DNA of 41,749 bases from positions 1 to 41,749 of IMG/VR virus record IMGVR_UViG_3300047471_000082; one strand, written 5' to 3'. Source of the DNA: a virus. The translations under genes were made by a program, and so were the position numbers. Under the pieces are notes generated by a model that saw only the letters and a program-made list of their open reading frames with translations, searched no databases and was not told the origin of the DNA. Shown here one piece after another: positions 6,498 to 36,488 of this stretch. How positions within the stretch are numbered: the stretch's first letter is position 1; each line of letters begins with the position of its first letter.

Positions 6498-6635
6498 CTA
6501 CTGACGCTGCGCCGCGAGGCGTGACACCAGCGACTTGATGCTGATGCCGAGTTGCGCCGCGCTCACTTTCAACTGCTGATGCGCGTCGGCCTCAATCCGA
6601 ATCGTGACCGGCTTGCGCTTGGCTGCTTTCTTCAT
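6498..6635 (-). CDS. Ribbon-helix-helix DNA-binding regulator, 45 aa
   Basis: The product (MKKAAKRKPVTIRIEADAHQ onwards) has the Arc/CopG pattern: a basic arm, the strand VTIRIEA, helix QLKVSAAQLG, then ISIKSLVSRLAAQR. Such proteins bind operators as dimers or tetramers. The chosen ATG at 6635 lies 7 nt after a TACAAT -10 box, so a leaderless message is likely; two in-frame ATGs upstream (6644, 6653) overlap that promoter. Having its own promoter fits a regulator, probably of early genes. Confidence 0.75.
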   Translation of the reverse strand: MKKAAKRKPVTIRIEADAHQQLKVSAAQLGISIKSLVSRLAAQRQ

Positions 6636-6642
6636 GAGCCGC

Positions 6643-6672
6643 ATTGTAGGCATAAGACGCATTCGATTGCAA
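6643..6672 (-). promoter_or_regulatory. Candidate sigma70-type promoter for the ribbon-helix-helix gene
   Basis: On the minus strand TTGCAA (6667-6672) is separated by 18 bp from TACAAT (6643-6648). The gene's ATG begins 7 nt after the -10, so transcripts would start at or next to the start codon. The architecture matches the promoters at 12397-12485. Confidence 0.5.
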
Positions 6673-6753
6673 CTACTCCAACCCATCCAGCCGGTCCCGC
6701 CATACCTTCGCCGGTCCCGTGCCCTTGATGGCCGTGAACTTCGTCTCACGCAC
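6673..6753 (-). CDS. Possible microprotein, 26 aa
   Basis: GTG at 6753 overlaps the stop of the loader gene by 8 nt and the frame ends TAG at 6673. The product reads VRETKFTAIKGTGPAKVW and then a short charged helix. It fills the space before the ribbon-helix-helix promoter. It fits the compact gene string but is too short for certainty. Confidence 0.3.
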   Translation of the reverse strand: MRETKFTAIKGTGPAKVWRDRLDGLE

Positions 6754-9895: not shown

Positions 9896-10029
9896 CGCAA
9901 CCTCTTGATCATCTGCGCCACGGTTTCGTCGCCGTCGAATCGCACCAGCCCTCGCGGTTCCTTGTTCGGGAACTGGCGATAGTCGTAGAGACGACGACCG
10001 AAAAGCCAGTCGAGGAAACGGCGGATCAT
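9892..10029 (-). CDS. Microprotein, 45 aa
   Basis: ATG at 10029 overlaps the preceding stop by 4 nt, and the TGA at 9892 overlaps the next ATG. The sequence MIRRFLDWLFGRRLYDYRQF starts with an amphipathic basic helix that could associate with membrane, then a charged part (GLVRFDGDETVAQMIKRLR). Function unknown. Confidence 0.6.
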   Translation of the reverse strand: MIRRFLDWLFGRRLYDYRQFPNKEPRGLVRFDGDETVAQMIKRLR

Positions 10030-10268
10030 TTACTTCTCTCCGCTAACATGCCATCGGCGACGGCATAAGCCGCTCTCGCAACAAACTCGGGCGATAACTT
10101 GTCTCCGGCCAGCACGCGCGTATCGCACGCCGCATAGATAGCAGGCAGCACTTGGGCCGCGAAGTAATCGCGCAGCGACATCTGCGGCAACGATGTGGCC
10201 GGTGTCGGATAGTTGCGAAGATTCTCACGCGCCCATTCCTGCTTCTCGGGGTCGTCTTGCTGAATCAT
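10026..10268 (-). CDS. Conserved small phage protein, 80 aa
   Basis: The core MSLRDYFAAQVLPAIYAAC followed by a helix ending AAYAVADGMLAERSK is a pattern seen in small early proteins of many phages. ATG at 10268 overlaps the stop of an 11-codon mini-frame by 4 nt. The protein is helical and has no catalytic motif. Function unknown. Confidence 0.7.
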   Translation of the reverse strand: MIQQDDPEKQEWARENLRNYPTPATSLPQMSLRDYFAAQVLPAIYAACDTRVLAGDKLSPEFVARAAYAVADGMLAERSK

Positions 10269-12108: not shown

Positions 12109-12390
12109 CTAATCAGTGACGTGACGACGGCCCATGATGACGCGCGTGTCGTCGGGCTGGGGAATCCCGCGCAACCGATCCTGGCGCTGCGCGGCTTGCT
12201 GCATGAGACGAGCGAGTTCGGCACGAGCCTCGATAGCCATGACCGCTCGATACGCCTGCCGTGCGAACTTCACGGCGTCCCTGGTAGCAGGTCTATAAGC
12301 GGGCGCGAGCGTTCCGGGCGTGGCGGCCTTGCGAATCGCCCACAGCAGCGACTCGGTAATCATCTTTAACTCCGAAGTGGCAGTAACCAT
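12109..12390 (-). CDS. First gene of the leftward early operon, 93 aa
   Basis: ATG at 12390 lies 6 nt after a TAAGAT -10 box, so its message would be leaderless; an internal ATG at 12363 with GGAG upstream is an alternative start (84 aa). The protein is helical and basic: ESLLWAIRKAATPGTL, KFARQAYRAVMAIEARAEL, then RRHVTD. Its charge and position beside the control region could suit a regulator, but no DNA-binding family is recognised. Confidence 0.65.
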   Translation of the reverse strand: MVTATSELKMITESLLWAIRKAATPGTLAPAYRPATRDAVKFARQAYRAVMAIEARAELARLMQQAAQRQDRLRGIPQPDDTRVIMGRRHVTD

Positions 12391-12396
12391 ATGCGA

Positions 12397-12425
12397 ATCT
12401 TACCGCTACGCATTGGCCGTGTCAA
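12397..12425 (-). promoter_or_regulatory. Leftward early promoter
   Basis: On the minus strand a perfect TTGACA (12420-12425) is 17 bp from TAAGAT (12397-12402). The ATG at 12390 starts 6 nt past the -10. It faces away from the rightward promoter at 12456-12485. Confidence 0.6.
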
Positions 12426-12427
12426 GT

Positions 12428-12448
12428 GGCCTGTTTTCGGCCTGTTTT
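12428..12448. promoter_or_regulatory. Two direct repeats between divergent promoters, possible operator
   Basis: GGCCTGTTTT occurs at 12428-12437 and again at 12439-12448, a period of 11 bp. The pair lies immediately upstream of both -35 boxes, where a regulator could control both early operons at once. Confidence 0.5.
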
Positions 12449-12455
12449 GGCATAC

Positions 12456-12485
12456 TTGCAAGCCGCTAGGCAGACGTGCTATTGT
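12456..12485 (+). promoter_or_regulatory. Rightward early promoter of the micro-operon
   Basis: TTGCAA (12456-12461), an 18-bp spacer and TATTGT (12480-12485) precede the ATG at 12496 by 10 nt. The -35 hexamer and spacer length are the same as in the promoter at 6643-6672. Confidence 0.5.
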
Positions 12486-12495
12486 CTGCGACAGG

Positions 12496-12648
12496 ATGAA
12501 ACAGAAACCGAAGAACCCGCACGCGCAGGCCCTCGGCAGTCTCGGCGGATTGGCCCGGAAGAACAACATGAGCCGTCCGAAGCTCAAGGCAGCGGCCCGT
12601 CATGCCGCGAATGCCCGCTGGCAGCAAGTCAAAGAGGCCAAGCAGTGA
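12496..12648 (+). CDS. Micro-operon gene 1: small basic GGLAR-type protein, 50 aa
   Basis: ATG at 12496 is the first start after the rightward promoter. The product has ALGSLGGLARKNNMSRPKLK and then AAARHAANARW, a pattern of small basic proteins widespread in phages and bacteria and thought to bind nucleic acid. A longer frame from 12391 runs back through the promoter and is rejected. The stop overlaps the next GTG by 4 nt. As first gene it may regulate the operon. Confidence 0.7.
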   Translation: MKQKPKNPHAQALGSLGGLARKNNMSRPKLKAAARHAANARWQQVKEAKQ

Positions 12649-12815
12649 AGCGCCACAACCCGCCCGACCTGACCGGCCGGCAACTACGAGCCTTGCACAA
12701 GCGCATCCAGACGTTGGAGCGGATGGCGAAAGACGACCGCCGCCGGATCGACTTGATTGAACGCGGCGCGACGAAGCTGAACCAGTGGGTCAGACAGTTG
12801 CAGGCGAAGCAATGA
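12645..12815 (+). CDS. Micro-operon gene 2: coiled-coil microprotein, 56 aa
   Basis: GTG at 12645 overlaps the previous TGA (GTGA) and has GAGG upstream. After a short RHNPPDLTGRQL it forms one basic helix (ALHKRIQTLERMAKDDRRRI) likely to be a coiled coil. No family known. Confidence 0.65.
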   Translation: MKRHNPPDLTGRQLRALHKRIQTLERMAKDDRRRIDLIERGATKLNQWVRQLQAKQ

Positions 12816-13030
12816 GAACTAGGACCGACATCGAACGGCACTTCGGCTATCTGCGGGGCTGGCCGGTGTCCTCGCACTTCGATCCGGAGATTCAATGCCT
12901 CGTCGTGACGGCCCATGAGCCGCATTACTTTGAATTGGGAAACCAGATGTGCGGAGGCTGGAACCCGCTCTGCGCCATCTGCGGCGTGCCCGAGGATGAG
13001 CATTCGATTCCAGTGAAGGATAAGCGATGA
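12812..13030 (+). CDS. Micro-operon gene 3: zinc-finger-like protein, 72 aa
   Basis: ATG at 12812 overlaps the previous stop by 4 nt. The C-terminal part reads MCGGWNPLCAICGVPEDEHS, with a CxxC pair, another cysteine and a histidine suited to zinc binding. The N-terminal half is a small alpha/beta segment (HFGYLRGWPVSSHFDPEIQC). Function unknown. Confidence 0.7.
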   Translation: MRTRTDIERHFGYLRGWPVSSHFDPEIQCLVVTAHEPHYFELGNQMCGGWNPLCAICGVPEDEHSIPVKDKR

Positions 13031-13194
13031 ACTACCGGCATCACCCGCCGAAGCGTGACGACCTCGCCCGTGCCTATATGGACCTACTGCTGCTACGAGC
13101 GTGGGACGCGCATGCGACACGGCTGGAAGCAGAACGTCAACCCGAGGCCGAGTTCGACGCGAAGTTTCTCAAACAGTTGGGGATTCAACCATGA
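13027..13194 (+). CDS. Micro-operon gene 4: helical microprotein, 55 aa
   Basis: ATG at 13027 has AAGGA upstream and overlaps the previous stop by 4 nt; TGA at 13192-13194 overlaps the next ATG. The product (MNYRHHPPKRDDLARAYMDL, then a charged helix ending FLKQLGIQP) is amphipathic and soluble. No family known. Confidence 0.65.
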   Translation: MNYRHHPPKRDDLARAYMDLLLLRAWDAHATRLEAERQPEAEFDAKFLKQLGIQP

Positions 13195-13298
13195 ACCGTC
13201 GCCCTCGCCGCGAACCCGTCCTCGTCACCCTCTTTGCCGCCGTCTTGGCCGTGCTGGCCGTGGGCGAGATTTACTTCATTTTGGCGGTGGCGCAGTGA
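13191..13298 (+). CDS. Micro-operon gene 5: single-pass membrane peptide, 35 aa
   Basis: ATG at 13191 follows GGGG and overlaps the previous stop. After a basic start (MNRRPRREP) a continuous hydrophobic stretch LVTLFAAVLAVLAVGEIYFI spans the inner membrane. Such short phage membrane peptides can act on host envelope proteins, exclude other phages or modulate lysis, but nothing here points to one role. Confidence 0.65.
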   Translation: MNRRPRREPVLVTLFAAVLAVLAVGEIYFILAVAQ

Positions 13299-13507
13299 CG
13301 CACCATCTCCTGCCGGGGACACAGCGCGACGAATGGCCGAAGCCGTCAGAAGCGGCAATGGAAGCCGAGCAAGACGGGCCACGCGGGATTATGCGAGATG
13401 AAGTTTCCGGCATTTCCATGAGATGTATCCGATCTTATCAACCATTGCCGCCTGAGGCGGAATATGCACGCTGGCGGCACATTTTTCGCGGGGGAGGGTG
13501 CGAGTGA
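13295..13507 (+). CDS. Micro-operon gene 6: hypothetical protein, 70 aa
   Basis: GTG at 13295 overlaps the previous TGA by 4 nt. The soluble product (VTHHLLPGTQRDEWPKPSEA, then SYQPLPPEAEYARWRHIF) has no known motif. It ends GGGCE just as the next GTG begins. Confidence 0.6.
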   Translation: MTHHLLPGTQRDEWPKPSEAAMEAEQDGPRGIMRDEVSGISMRCIRSYQPLPPEAEYARWRHIFRGGGCE

Positions 13508-13620
13508 TTACCGCCGCCGTCATCTTGTCAGTAGGTATCTATTTCGCGCTCCACGACTTTGGCGTGGACATCAAAAGGGCCGCGAATCTCATCGCTGAAG
13601 CGATACGGAGGACACCATGA
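13504..13620 (+). CDS. Micro-operon gene 7: membrane microprotein, 38 aa
   Basis: GTG at 13504 is preceded by GGGGGAGGG. The N terminus (ITAAVILSVGIYFALHDF) is a short membrane helix; the rest is an amphipathic basic helix (IKRAANLIAEAIRRTP). It overlaps its neighbours by 4 nt on both sides. Function unknown. Confidence 0.6.
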   Translation: MITAAVILSVGIYFALHDFGVDIKRAANLIAEAIRRTP

Positions 13621-13781
13621 CAATGCTACGTGCTGGAGAAACACCTATCCACGAACAACTGCGGAGAACAATTGCCGCGATGGCCCGAGCGACCTCTTTG
13701 CCATCTGACGCCTGGACGCGCTTTGATGCGAAGCTGCGGCAGATGGCCGACAAGCCGTTGGCGGAACGGGAGGCCCAATGA
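13617..13781 (+). CDS. Micro-operon gene 8: helical microprotein, 54 aa
   Basis: ATG at 13617 has a strong GGAGG five nt upstream. The soluble helical product (HEQLRRTIAAMARATSLP, then FDAKLRQMADKPLAEREAQ) has no recognised domain. It overlaps the next gene by 4 nt. Confidence 0.65.
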   Translation: MTMLRAGETPIHEQLRRTIAAMARATSLPSDAWTRFDAKLRQMADKPLAEREAQ

Positions 13782-13954
13782 GAGGCGATGTGACGTTTGC
13801 GCCGACTGCGCGGACCGAAGGCCGCATCAAGACCGCGCTGATCTGGACGATGGTGATCGTGCTGCTGCCGGCCCTGTGGGTCATCAGCTTCATCGTCCAG
13901 AACGTCGGCTGGAACGATGATGACGGGAAACCGCTGCCGGTCAGGCATTGGTAG
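13778..13954 (+). CDS. Micro-operon gene 9: single-pass membrane protein, 58 aa
   Basis: ATG at 13778 follows GGGAGG. Residues 15-45 include a membrane helix (ALIWTMVIVLLPALWVISFI), with a polar N-terminal arm and an acidic C-terminal end (NDDDGKPLPVRHW). It is the last clear gene of the plus-strand operon. Function unknown. Confidence 0.65.
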   Translation: MRGDVTFAPTARTEGRIKTALIWTMVIVLLPALWVISFIVQNVGWNDDDGKPLPVRHW

Positions 13955-14021
13955 AGACACCACGGCCATTCCCGATGTCCCCCGCGAATTCAAGGGCTAT
14001 CGGTTCGACCTCTGGCGGTAG
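13920..14021 (+). CDS. Possible microprotein after the operon, 33 aa
   Basis: ATG at 13920 opens a frame overlapping gene 9 by 35 nt and ending TAG at 14021. The second half (TAIPDVPREFKGYRFDLWR) reads like protein, but the overlap breaks the 4-nt pattern and the ribosome binding site is weak. Confidence 0.25.
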   Translation: MTGNRCRSGIGRDTTAIPDVPREFKGYRFDLWR

Positions 14022-14112: not shown

Positions 14113-14302
14113 CTAGCCTCCAACGCGGGACGGTTCGAGATCGGTGATTCCGTTCCCCCGCTCGTGCCTGCTGTCAAACGGAGCGCGGCTCAAACGTGCG
14201 AGTTCGCCCAAATGCCAGGCTTATGAAGGGAGCGGTTTGCCAAGGTCAGTCCAGTCCGGTAAACTTGGACTTCCTCGGCGACGTGCCTTGAACACGCTGC
14301 CG

Positions 14303-14362
14303 CTGATTGGCCTAAACAATCAGCACACTGAAACGGGCCTCACGGCCCGATTCGTGTTTCAG
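14303..14362. terminator. Paired hairpins between convergent operons
   Basis: CTGATTG/CAATCAG (14303-14309, 14317-14323) is followed at once by a bipartite hairpin: outer stem CTGAAAC/GTTTCAG (14328-14334, 14356-14362) around inner CGGGCC/GGCCCG (14334-14339, 14344-14349). Position at the end of two converging transcripts suggests bidirectional termination. Confidence 0.55.
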
Positions 14363-14371
14363 GCGTCTATT

Positions 14372-14509
14372 CTACTTCAAAAACGGCCAAGCAATCGCAA
14401 GGCCGAGCGCGATGACGGCCCACGCTAATAGATTTTGGCCGCGGGCGCGGAGTTCTTCAATCGCGCCCAAAACGAGGGCCACGAGCGCAAAGACAATCGT
14501 CCAGTTCAC
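14372..14509 (-). CDS. Small two-helix membrane protein, 45 aa
   Basis: GTG at 14509 has a strong GGAGG and overlaps the upstream TGA (GTGA). The product has two hydrophobic helices, NWTIVFALVALVLG and AWAVIALGLAIAWPFL, joined by a charged turn (EELRARGQ). Its size and layout fit a small holin, antiholin or other lysis-associated membrane protein. It is the last gene of the lysis region and is followed by terminator-like hairpins. Confidence 0.6.
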   Translation of the reverse strand: MNWTIVFALVALVLGAIEELRARGQNLLAWAVIALGLAIAWPFLK

Positions 14510-34555: not shown

Positions 34556-35203
34556 CTATTTCACGTCCTTTGCGCGCCCGAGTAACAGTCGATATCGCAT
34601 CTGCATCATCGTCAATCCTGTCGCCTTACAAGCATCCCTCACGCAGGGATATCGGACGCCTTCGTATTCAATCGGTCGAGCCTTCGGGTGCGCTCCTCCA
34701 CGCTTTTGGTTGAGACGCATCTTCGCTTTGGCTTCCTCAGATTGTGGAATCCCTTTATTCCACGCTCGCTGCCCTTTCCGGGCTTCTGAGAGCCGCTTTC
34801 GAAGTTCTGCCGACAAGGGTCCGGTTTTCAAGCCGGTATTCCATGTCGGCTTCCCTCGATTGGCGCGAGAGATCGCGGCTTTGTTCTTCTCGGTCATCGC
34901 CCGAAGGTGCTGACCGATGCCACCCGCAGTCATGTTGTAGCCGTGAGGCGTCAACGTGCCGAGAGCAGCAATCGCCGCGACTTCCATCGCCAAAAGTTCT
35001 TGATAGCTTGTTGGCCTCGCCAACTCGACTACCTCAAACTGTTCCCAACCGTCGTCTCGAATCGCTTGATGCAGCACTGACGTTCGGTCGCCTTTTGCTG
35101 CCCGGTGCCGATGCAGCACCAAGCGATCATTCAGTCTCTTGCGCGTCGTGGCCCCGATGTAACTAAGGCCTGTCTTGCGATTCATCAGCTTGTAGAGAAT
35201 CAA
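34556..35203 (-). CDS. GIY-YIG homing endonuclease with NUMOD3 motifs
   Basis: TTG at 35203 has GGAGGGG upstream. Residues 3-31 match a GIY-YIG core (LYKLMNRKTGLSYIGATTRK, with R27 and H31), E74 and N90 are the catalytic Glu and Asn positions, and RPTSYQELLAMEVAAIAA links them. Residues 112-165 have two NUMOD3-type repeats (AISRANRGKPTWNTG, LSEARKGQRAWNKG), and the C terminus looks like a small helix-turn-helix (ACKATGLTMMQMRYRLL). It sits directly after the coat gene, a common insertion place for homing nucleases. Confidence 0.85.
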   Translation of the reverse strand: MILYKLMNRKTGLSYIGATTRKRLNDRLVLHRHRAAKGDRTSVLHQAIRDDGWEQFEVVELARPTSYQELLAMEVAAIAALGTLTPHGYNMTAGGIGQHLRAMTEKNKAAISRANRGKPTWNTGLKTGPLSAELRKRLSEARKGQRAWNKGIPQSEEAKAKMRLNQKRGGAHPKARPIEYEGVRYPCVRDACKATGLTMMQMRYRLLLGRAKDVK

Positions 35204-35220
35204 TCAGCCCCTCCGGGCTA

Positions 35221-35226
35221 ATTATA
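35221..35226 (-). promoter_or_regulatory. TATAAT box upstream of the GIY-YIG gene
   Basis: A perfect TATAAT on the minus strand lies in the gap between coat and nuclease genes, 17 nt before the TTG start. The -35 is weak (GTGATA, or TTGAGT at a long spacing). It may give the nuclease its own low promoter. Confidence 0.3.
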
Positions 35227-35249
35227 CCCTCTACCTAGCTACTTATCAC

Positions 35250-36488
35250 TCAAGACATCAAGCGTACGGCGAAATATGGCAGAATCGCGGCGACGCCCCC
35301 GAGCGTATCCACACGGCTTGGCGACTGGTCCGTCTGGATGTTGTATTGCTCGACCCAGCGCATGCTGATCTTCGTGTCCGCATCGCCGACCGTCTTGGCG
35401 TTCGCACCCGCGAGCGCGTCCGGCAGGTCCACCATCGCGAACGCGAAAGCGGCCGGGTTGAACATGAGCGACTGCCGCGTCTGTGTCGCCGCCATCGTGG
35501 CCGCCACGGTGCCGGTCGCCCCGAGGAACGTCAACGCCGCGCTGTTGCCCGGTGCCGCCGTGACCGTCTGGAGTGACCCGGACGGGATGATCGACGGGCT
35601 GATCGAGAGCGTCGCTGTGGTCACACCTGACGCGTCGGCCGTCAGCACGAACTGCTGGAGGACGCCGGTCGAGGTGTAGCTTTCCGGGTTGACGCCGTAG
35701 ACACCATCAATCGTAAAGATGTCGCCCTGCTTCAGCGCATAGGTGCCCATGCCCGAGGTCGCGAGCGACGATCCGGTCTGTCCGCCCGAGGACGTGATCG
35801 GGGTCGCCGTCGTGAACGTCCCGGTCGTGTGGATCGGGATATTCGGGTCGTAATACCACTCCTCGACGCCGAGTGCCGCCGCCCCGAACTGGCCCTGCTT
35901 GAAATACTGGCTGATCTGGCCGGCCGGATTGAACAGCGCGAAGTTGTTGGCGAGGAGCGACGACTGGGTGAGCGGGTCGATGACGCACATCAGGTCTTCG
36001 GCCGGCACGGCGTTGTTGTGCAAGAGCGCGACCGCATCGGTCCACGTCTTGTTGTCCGTGATGGCCGTGCCCGGTGTGCCGGCCGCGAAGTAGACCGACT
36101 TGTAGACTTCCGCGCCCGCGACCACGTCCCACTTGTTCGCCTGACGACGACCCGCGGTCTTCGTATAGCGGTTCTGCACCTGCTCGACTTCGAGGGCCGA
36201 CTGCGAGGACGACCACCCCATGCCAATCTGGAACTGGTGGTTGATCGTCAGCGGCACGGTCTGGTTCAGAATGGCCTGTTGAATCAAGCCCTGACCTTCG
36301 ACGACCGGCCACCGCTGTTGGATGCGGACCTGCACCGTGTCGCCAATCTGCGTGCCTTCGGGCTTGTCCTTGAAGTTGCCCTTTTCCCACGAACGGTCGA
36401 ATCGGCCGATGAGCTTAAGGTTATTCTTGAAGTTGACCGCAACGTCCTTCGAGACCCACGTCGGAGTAATGAACGTATTTGTCGCCAT
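35250..36488 (-). CDS. Major capsid protein, P22 coat (gp5) family
   Basis: The 412-residue product follows P22-type coat order: TFITPTWVSKDVAVNFKNNL, TVQVRIQQRWPVVEGQG, VPLTINHQFQIGMGWSSSQS, then VEQVQNRYTKTAGRRQANK. Residues about 220-345 form an inserted beta domain (FTIDGVYGVNPESYTSTGVL), equivalent in place to the P22 I-domain. The C-terminal part (NPAAFAFAMVDLPDAL, ISMRWVEQYNIQTDQSPSRV) returns to the HK97-like core. P22 gp5 is 430 aa. It lies right after the scaffold gene. Confidence 0.9.
   Translation of the reverse strand: MATNTFITPTWVSKDVAVNFKNNLKLIGRFDRSWEKGNFKDKPEGTQIGDTVQVRIQQRWPVVEGQGLIQQAILNQTVPLTINHQFQIGMGWSSSQSALEVEQVQNRYTKTAGRRQANKWDVVAGAEVYKSVYFAAGTPGTAITDNKTWTDAVALLHNNAVPAEDLMCVIDPLTQSSLLANNFALFNPAGQISQYFKQGQFGAAALGVEEWYYDPNIPIHTTGTFTTATPITSSGGQTGSSLATSGMGTYALKQGDIFTIDGVYGVNPESYTSTGVLQQFVLTADASGVTTATLSISPSIIPSGSLQTVTAAPGNSAALTFLGATGTVAATMAATQTRQSLMFNPAAFAFAMVDLPDALAGANAKTVGDADTKISMRWVEQYNIQTDQSPSRVDTLGGVAAILPYFAVRLMS

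Follow-up and report, generated by a model that had tools for sequence, protein, structure and literature searches.

A chain of nine small genes joined by 4-nucleotide overlaps, a probable accessory operon in a phage with a P22-like head module

Runs of 4-nt overlaps in described phages and at the present locus

Long runs of genes joined by 4-nucleotide (nt) overlaps are already present in annotated, cultured phages. Genes 51 to 59 of Gordonia phage Pipp (MN234179) and genes 45 to 53 of Pseudomonas phage PAE2 (OK041467) each comprise nine hypothetical genes in one orientation, most of them small, whose annotated coordinates give eight 4-nt overlaps in succession; F116 has six such junctions in a row, and several occur in the early-left operon (eaI-eaD-eaF) and nin region of P22. 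The early-left (pL) operons of P22 and lambda are divergent from the replication unit and carry many small accessory genes. The P22 region is annotated with ral, kil, gene 17, and the abc genes, with sieB nearby, and in lambda all genes of the pL operon but N are dispensable for plaques (PMC10695390). Termination-reinitiation has been demonstrated in E. coli and Haloferax with 14 pairs of overlapping genes (PMC6728339), and small phage proteins frequently target host machinery or the choice of lifestyle (PMC11323111).

The window analyzed here is a complete IMG/VR virus record of 41,749 bases, classed as linear. Between positions 12496 and 13954 (about 1.46 kb), its plus strand contains nine open reading frames (ORFs) of 35 to 72 codons, g1 to g9, joined by eight exact 4-nt overlaps. 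From g1 to g9, the junctions read GTGA, ATGA, ATGA, ATGA, GTGA, GTGA, ATGA, and ATGA, such that all eight place a start codon on a stop codon, and all coordinates and overlaps are exactly those given by the initial annotation. The run of eight junctions is equaled in Pipp and PAE2, with a shorter run in F116 and several such junctions in P22, which makes the architecture unsurprising: this style is established among phages and is not new. In Pipp and PAE2, unlike in the present operon, the proteins are bigger on average (56 to 196 aa), and the run is part of the replication/recombination unit and does not form a divergent unit of its own.

This phage uses the 4-nt junction widely, since the minus strand of the window also carries a mechanical chain of six ORFs linked in this manner. 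Across the phage, the commonest spacing between co-directional genes is -4 (17 of 63 junctions), followed by -1, in a crude gene call that had no overlap preference.

The gene map sets the chain apart: the record has no other rightward unit of note, and every other recognized module is leftward. Leftward genes below position 12390 encode a RecT annealing protein, NinB, a replication initiation protein, and a Holliday junction resolvase. To the right of the operon and oriented toward it are genes for an endolysin, the major head protein, the portal, and the terminase, with endonuclease VII and the endolysin running leftward from 16.6 kb. A P22-like head module is present (portal, scaffold, coat protein, and head closure Hc3; phrog_156, phrog_283, phrog_578, and phrog_8865), all of it leftward, and the terminase gene, also leftward, is on the same side of the record. 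The operon is thus divergent from the recombination/replication unit and convergent with the late unit, which ends at 14372 from the opposite side, approximately 417 nt past the end of the chain. One member of the leftward early unit, an 80-aa protein encoded at 10026 to 10268 (minus strand), matches phrog_2201 (E = 4.7e-11), a family with no assigned function, and has a relative encoded by PAE2.

Taken together, the chain is probably a divergent accessory operon of a phage with a P22-like head, transcribed as one short mRNA that encodes eight or nine small proteins and is probably expressed early.

Coding potential and initiation signals of the nine frames

The incidence of chance chains was determined by shuffling the whole window 300 times with its dinucleotides preserved, considering ORFs of at least 30 aa with ATG or GTG starts on both strands. 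The longest 4-nt-linked chain per shuffle ranged from 3 to 8 genes (4 in 176 shuffles), and none of the 300 shuffles reached the observed 9. Chains of 5 to 6 are not rare at 60% G+C, and chains of 7 to 8 arose in 2 of 300 shuffles, but the nine-gene chain exceeds chance.

Those two shuffles are what favors viewing the nine as chance open frames on the noncoding plus strand of a G+C-rich phage, and codon usage largely refutes that reading, which we consider highly improbable. Under a codon model built from 18 genes of the same phage that are long or have family support, the mean codon log-likelihood of the chain is +0.081, versus -0.208 ± 0.048 (maximum, -0.096) for shuffle-derived chance chains with at least four genes, placing the chain about 6 SD above them. 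For false chains on the plus strand, antisense to known genes, the mean score is -0.18 (maximum, 0.029). Moreover, the long ORFs on the opposite strand, at 12629 to 13120 (163 aa) and 13589 to 13993 (134 aa), have negative codon scores and were rejected as competitors, as were the plus-strand ORFs at 13055 to 13507 and 12426 to 12815, whose scores are about zero or negative.

By codon score, the chain as a whole registers as protein coding, and no competing frame outscores the called one at any of the nine genes, with near ties at g4, g6, and g7. The signal is clear for g1 (12496 to 12648, 50 aa), g2 (12645 to 12815, 56 aa), g5 (13191 to 13298, 35 aa), and g9 (13778 to 13954, 58 aa; score, 0.239), whose TAG closes the chain, and it is good for g3 (12812 to 13030, 72 aa). 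It is modest, with a close rival frame, for g4 (13027 to 13194, 55 aa) and g7 (13504 to 13620, 38 aa), and low for g8 (13617 to 13781, 54 aa; score, -0.026) and g6 (13295 to 13507, 70 aa, acidic). The last of these has the lowest coding signal among the nine: its score on its own is -0.078, tied with that of another frame. A crude gene caller run without any bonus for 4-nt junctions recovered g1, g4, g5, g7, and g9 exactly; for g2, g3, and g8 it kept the frame and chose a later start, and it dropped g6. This caller also picked a possible tenth frame of 34 aa at 13917 to 14021 (plus strand), which overlaps the end of g9 and has a weak coding score (0.07).

Predicted pairing with the anti-Shine-Dalgarno sequence is strong at g6 to g9 (-9.3 to -11.8 kcal/mol, in the top 0.5 to 3% of operon positions), with the strongest site at g7. 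Pairing is moderate at g2, g4, and g5 (about -5.5 kcal/mol) and weak at g3 (-2.9 kcal/mol), and g1 has no Shine-Dalgarno sequence. The earlier statement that most junctions carry such a site therefore holds only if the moderate sites are counted along with the four strong ones.

The low scores of g6 and g8 raise the alternative that only six to eight of the genes are real and that g6, and perhaps g8, are spurious frames that happen to keep the 4-nt rule. This would account for the caller dropping g6 and shortening g8, and shuffled sequences do yield chance chains of five to six. However, both g6 and g8 have strong Shine-Dalgarno sites, and without g6 an otherwise packed operon would contain a gap of 205 nt and the exact junctions on either side of it would be coincidental, such that a partial chain is the unlikely reading. 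Eight of the frames are well or fairly supported, and g6 is probable, not certain.

Promoters, RNA structures, and a proposed mode of expression

The region between the two divergent units contains several candidate regulatory elements. A leftward sigma70-type promoter, TTGACA-N17-TAAGAT (12397 to 12425, minus strand), agrees with the consensus at 10 of 12 positions and drives the divergent recombination/replication unit; it is the single match in the window to TTGACA-N16..18-TAWRAT, for which 0.03 matches are expected. The -10 element of this promoter lies so close to the ATG at 12390 (minus strand), ending 6 nt ahead of it, that this start would lack a leader. At 12363 (minus strand), an ATG in the same frame has a better Shine-Dalgarno sequence (-6.1 kcal/mol) than the 12390 start and may be the true start.

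Between the divergent promoters is a tandem direct repeat consisting of two copies of GGCCTGTTTT (12428 to 12448) at a spacing of 11 nt, or one helical turn. These are the only exact copies in the window, and the repeat is a possible operator. The candidate rightward promoter, TTGCAA-N18-TATTGT (12456 to 12485, plus strand), is weak: it agrees with the consensus at 8 of 12 positions, was read by eye from the sequence, and falls under the prediction threshold. If used, it would leave g1 with a 5' leader of only a few nucleotides, and this predicted near-absence of a leader agrees with the lack of a Shine-Dalgarno sequence at g1.

A G+C-rich hairpin at 14334 to 14349, in the gap where the operon and the late unit converge, is likely a terminator. 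The gap between the convergent units also contains, at 14266 to 14362 (plus strand), a three-hairpin element with a folding energy of -41.5 kcal/mol (z = -5.15) that no shuffle matched in stability. It is preceded by TTGCCA-N17-TAAACT at 14237 to 14265 and has no match in Rfam; the element may be either a bidirectional terminator or a small RNA transcribed from a promoter of its own. No tRNA, tmRNA, or Rfam RNA was detected in the operon region. Elsewhere, the strongest G+C-corrected fold in the window occurs just downstream of the major capsid gene (35146 to 35265, minus strand), and P22 has an annotated stem-loop at the equivalent site after its coat gene.

Transcription of the operon would begin in the divergent promoter region (12390 to 12495), probably early in infection. 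A ribosome ending one gene would then restart at the overlapping start codon, as established for termination-reinitiation, and the nine products would thereby be made together from a packed space, with the internal Shine-Dalgarno sites probably adding fresh initiation at g6 to g9. Translational coupling through the 4-nt junctions, proposed from their layout and the known mechanism, is our best reading of this arrangement.

Products, relatives, and probable roles

The predicted products are diverse, comprising three membrane peptides, one very basic protein, one helical protein, and one possible zinc protein. The single-pass membrane peptides proposed in the initial annotation are borne out by hydropathy. 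The maximum 19-residue values of g5 (2.45) and g9 (2.52) denote a clear single membrane-spanning segment, whereas the N-terminal hydrophobic segment of g7, which is followed by a basic tail, is weaker (1.71). The basic GGLAR-type protein was likewise correctly recognized: g1 has a pI of 12 and contains the motif. The g2 protein is basic and is predicted to form a single long helix spanning residues 11 to 55 (45 residues; pLDDT, 91). In g3, Cys47, Cys54, Cys57, and His64 (C-x6-C-x2-C-x6-H) are compatible with one putative zinc site; its single-sequence model is beta-rich and of low confidence (pLDDT, 62), with no fold match at E ≤ 0.001. An FHA-like fold for g3 was rejected because its best E value, obtained from this low-confidence model, was 0.22.

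Searches of Pfam, PHROGs, and NCBIfam gave no convincing family match for any of the nine proteins, described anti-defense or exclusion families included, and none of the nine matches PADLOC-DB, whose models cover defense and not anti-defense. The g1 protein has a marginal match to PHROG 2384 (E = 0.0023), the function of which is not assigned, and neither g1 nor g3 has a convincing match among PDB sequences. Weak matches to BLOC1_2, UreE, BirA, PspB, and other families were rejected as being far under curated cutoffs.

The cultured-phage collection contains no DNA similar to the operon or to a stretch of the late genes, and tblastn of g1 and g3 against cultured phages returned nothing at useful E values. 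In IMG/VR, no homologues of g1 or g3 were confirmed, nor were any confirmed by a joined query that sampled five further proteins, g2, g4, g7, g8, and g9, through one or two short peptide patterns apiece. A terminase scan of prokaryote genomes recovered no prophage relative. Terminase relatives in IMG/VR are 57 to 71% identical, and those fetched share the terminase, portal, coat, and head-closure genes, yet none of the nine proteins was found in them (for g1, whole records were also searched). No relative carrying the operon was therefore found, and as the searched sets may omit near relatives, this absence does not amount to uniqueness.

The closest long relative, IMGVR_UViG_3300046517_000498 (G005; terminase 71% identical), resembles the present phage in having small membrane, Cys-rich, and basic proteins encoded beside its early promoter region, with divergent runs of small genes to either side. 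The products of these genes include a 54-aa membrane peptide, Cys-pair proteins, a charged protein, and a basic Ala/Arg-rich protein. Unlike the uniform 4-nt overlaps of the present operon, their junctions are mixed (-1, -4, -8, -10, -13, and short gaps), and there is no sequence homology: the G005 small proteins neither align to the nine operon proteins nor match any PHROG. A 56-aa basic protein (NPAAVKMGKARW...) encoded near the early promoter region of G005 (L034:9661-9831, plus strand) is similar to g1 in kind and is not alignable. From this one phage pair, it is likely that small early accessory genes are swapped rapidly at a fixed place.

Divergent position and a wealth of small genes link the operon to the early-left operons of lambda and P22. 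Unlike those operons, the present unit holds only small orphans, with no repressor, antiterminator, integrase, or recombination gene recognized in it. Because no immunity repressor, antiterminator N, or integrase was recognized among the approximately 50 proteins of the phage scanned with PHROGs, the analogy is positional only. A weak Arc-like match occurs at 6498 to 6749, away from the operon. The designation of the chain as the only early rightward operon is upheld by the gene map with respect to its being the only rightward unit of note, and "early" derives from position and analogy. On these grounds, "early" and "accessory" are reasonable terms. The products would, by analogy with lambda and P22, be mostly nonessential modifiers of the host cell or its defenses, and such host- or defense-directed roles appear likelier than structural ones. 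Their position makes host takeover, exclusion, or anti-defense plausible.

A narrower interpretation is that the operon is a dedicated anti-defense or superinfection-exclusion island, with most of the nine proteins each blocking a host defense or the entry of a rival phage. The small size of the proteins, their lack of homologues, the membrane peptides, the resemblance in divergent position to the P22 early-left region, and the difference in gene content from G005 all suit such an island. It is nonetheless a doubtful interpretation, as no product matches a described family, the nine are too dissimilar to support one theme, and position alone does not show function. Still less probable is the most far-reaching version of the operon model, in which nine unrelated orphan microproteins are swapped wholesale between related phages, are strictly coupled by reinitiation, include several new inhibitors of host defense or machinery, and are accompanied by a small RNA at 14266 to 14362. 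An accessory operon of eight or nine small genes, probably early, is the reading we favor.

The arrangement itself is common in phages and, by itself, leaves understanding unchanged. If the products are made, the operon would bring nine orphan phage proteins together in compact, clonable form for screens of anti-defense functions and host inhibitors. In addition, its eight 4-nt junctions, extending from a first gene that lacks a Shine-Dalgarno sequence to last genes with strong ones, would offer a natural test of how far termination-reinitiation carries ribosomes along one mRNA.
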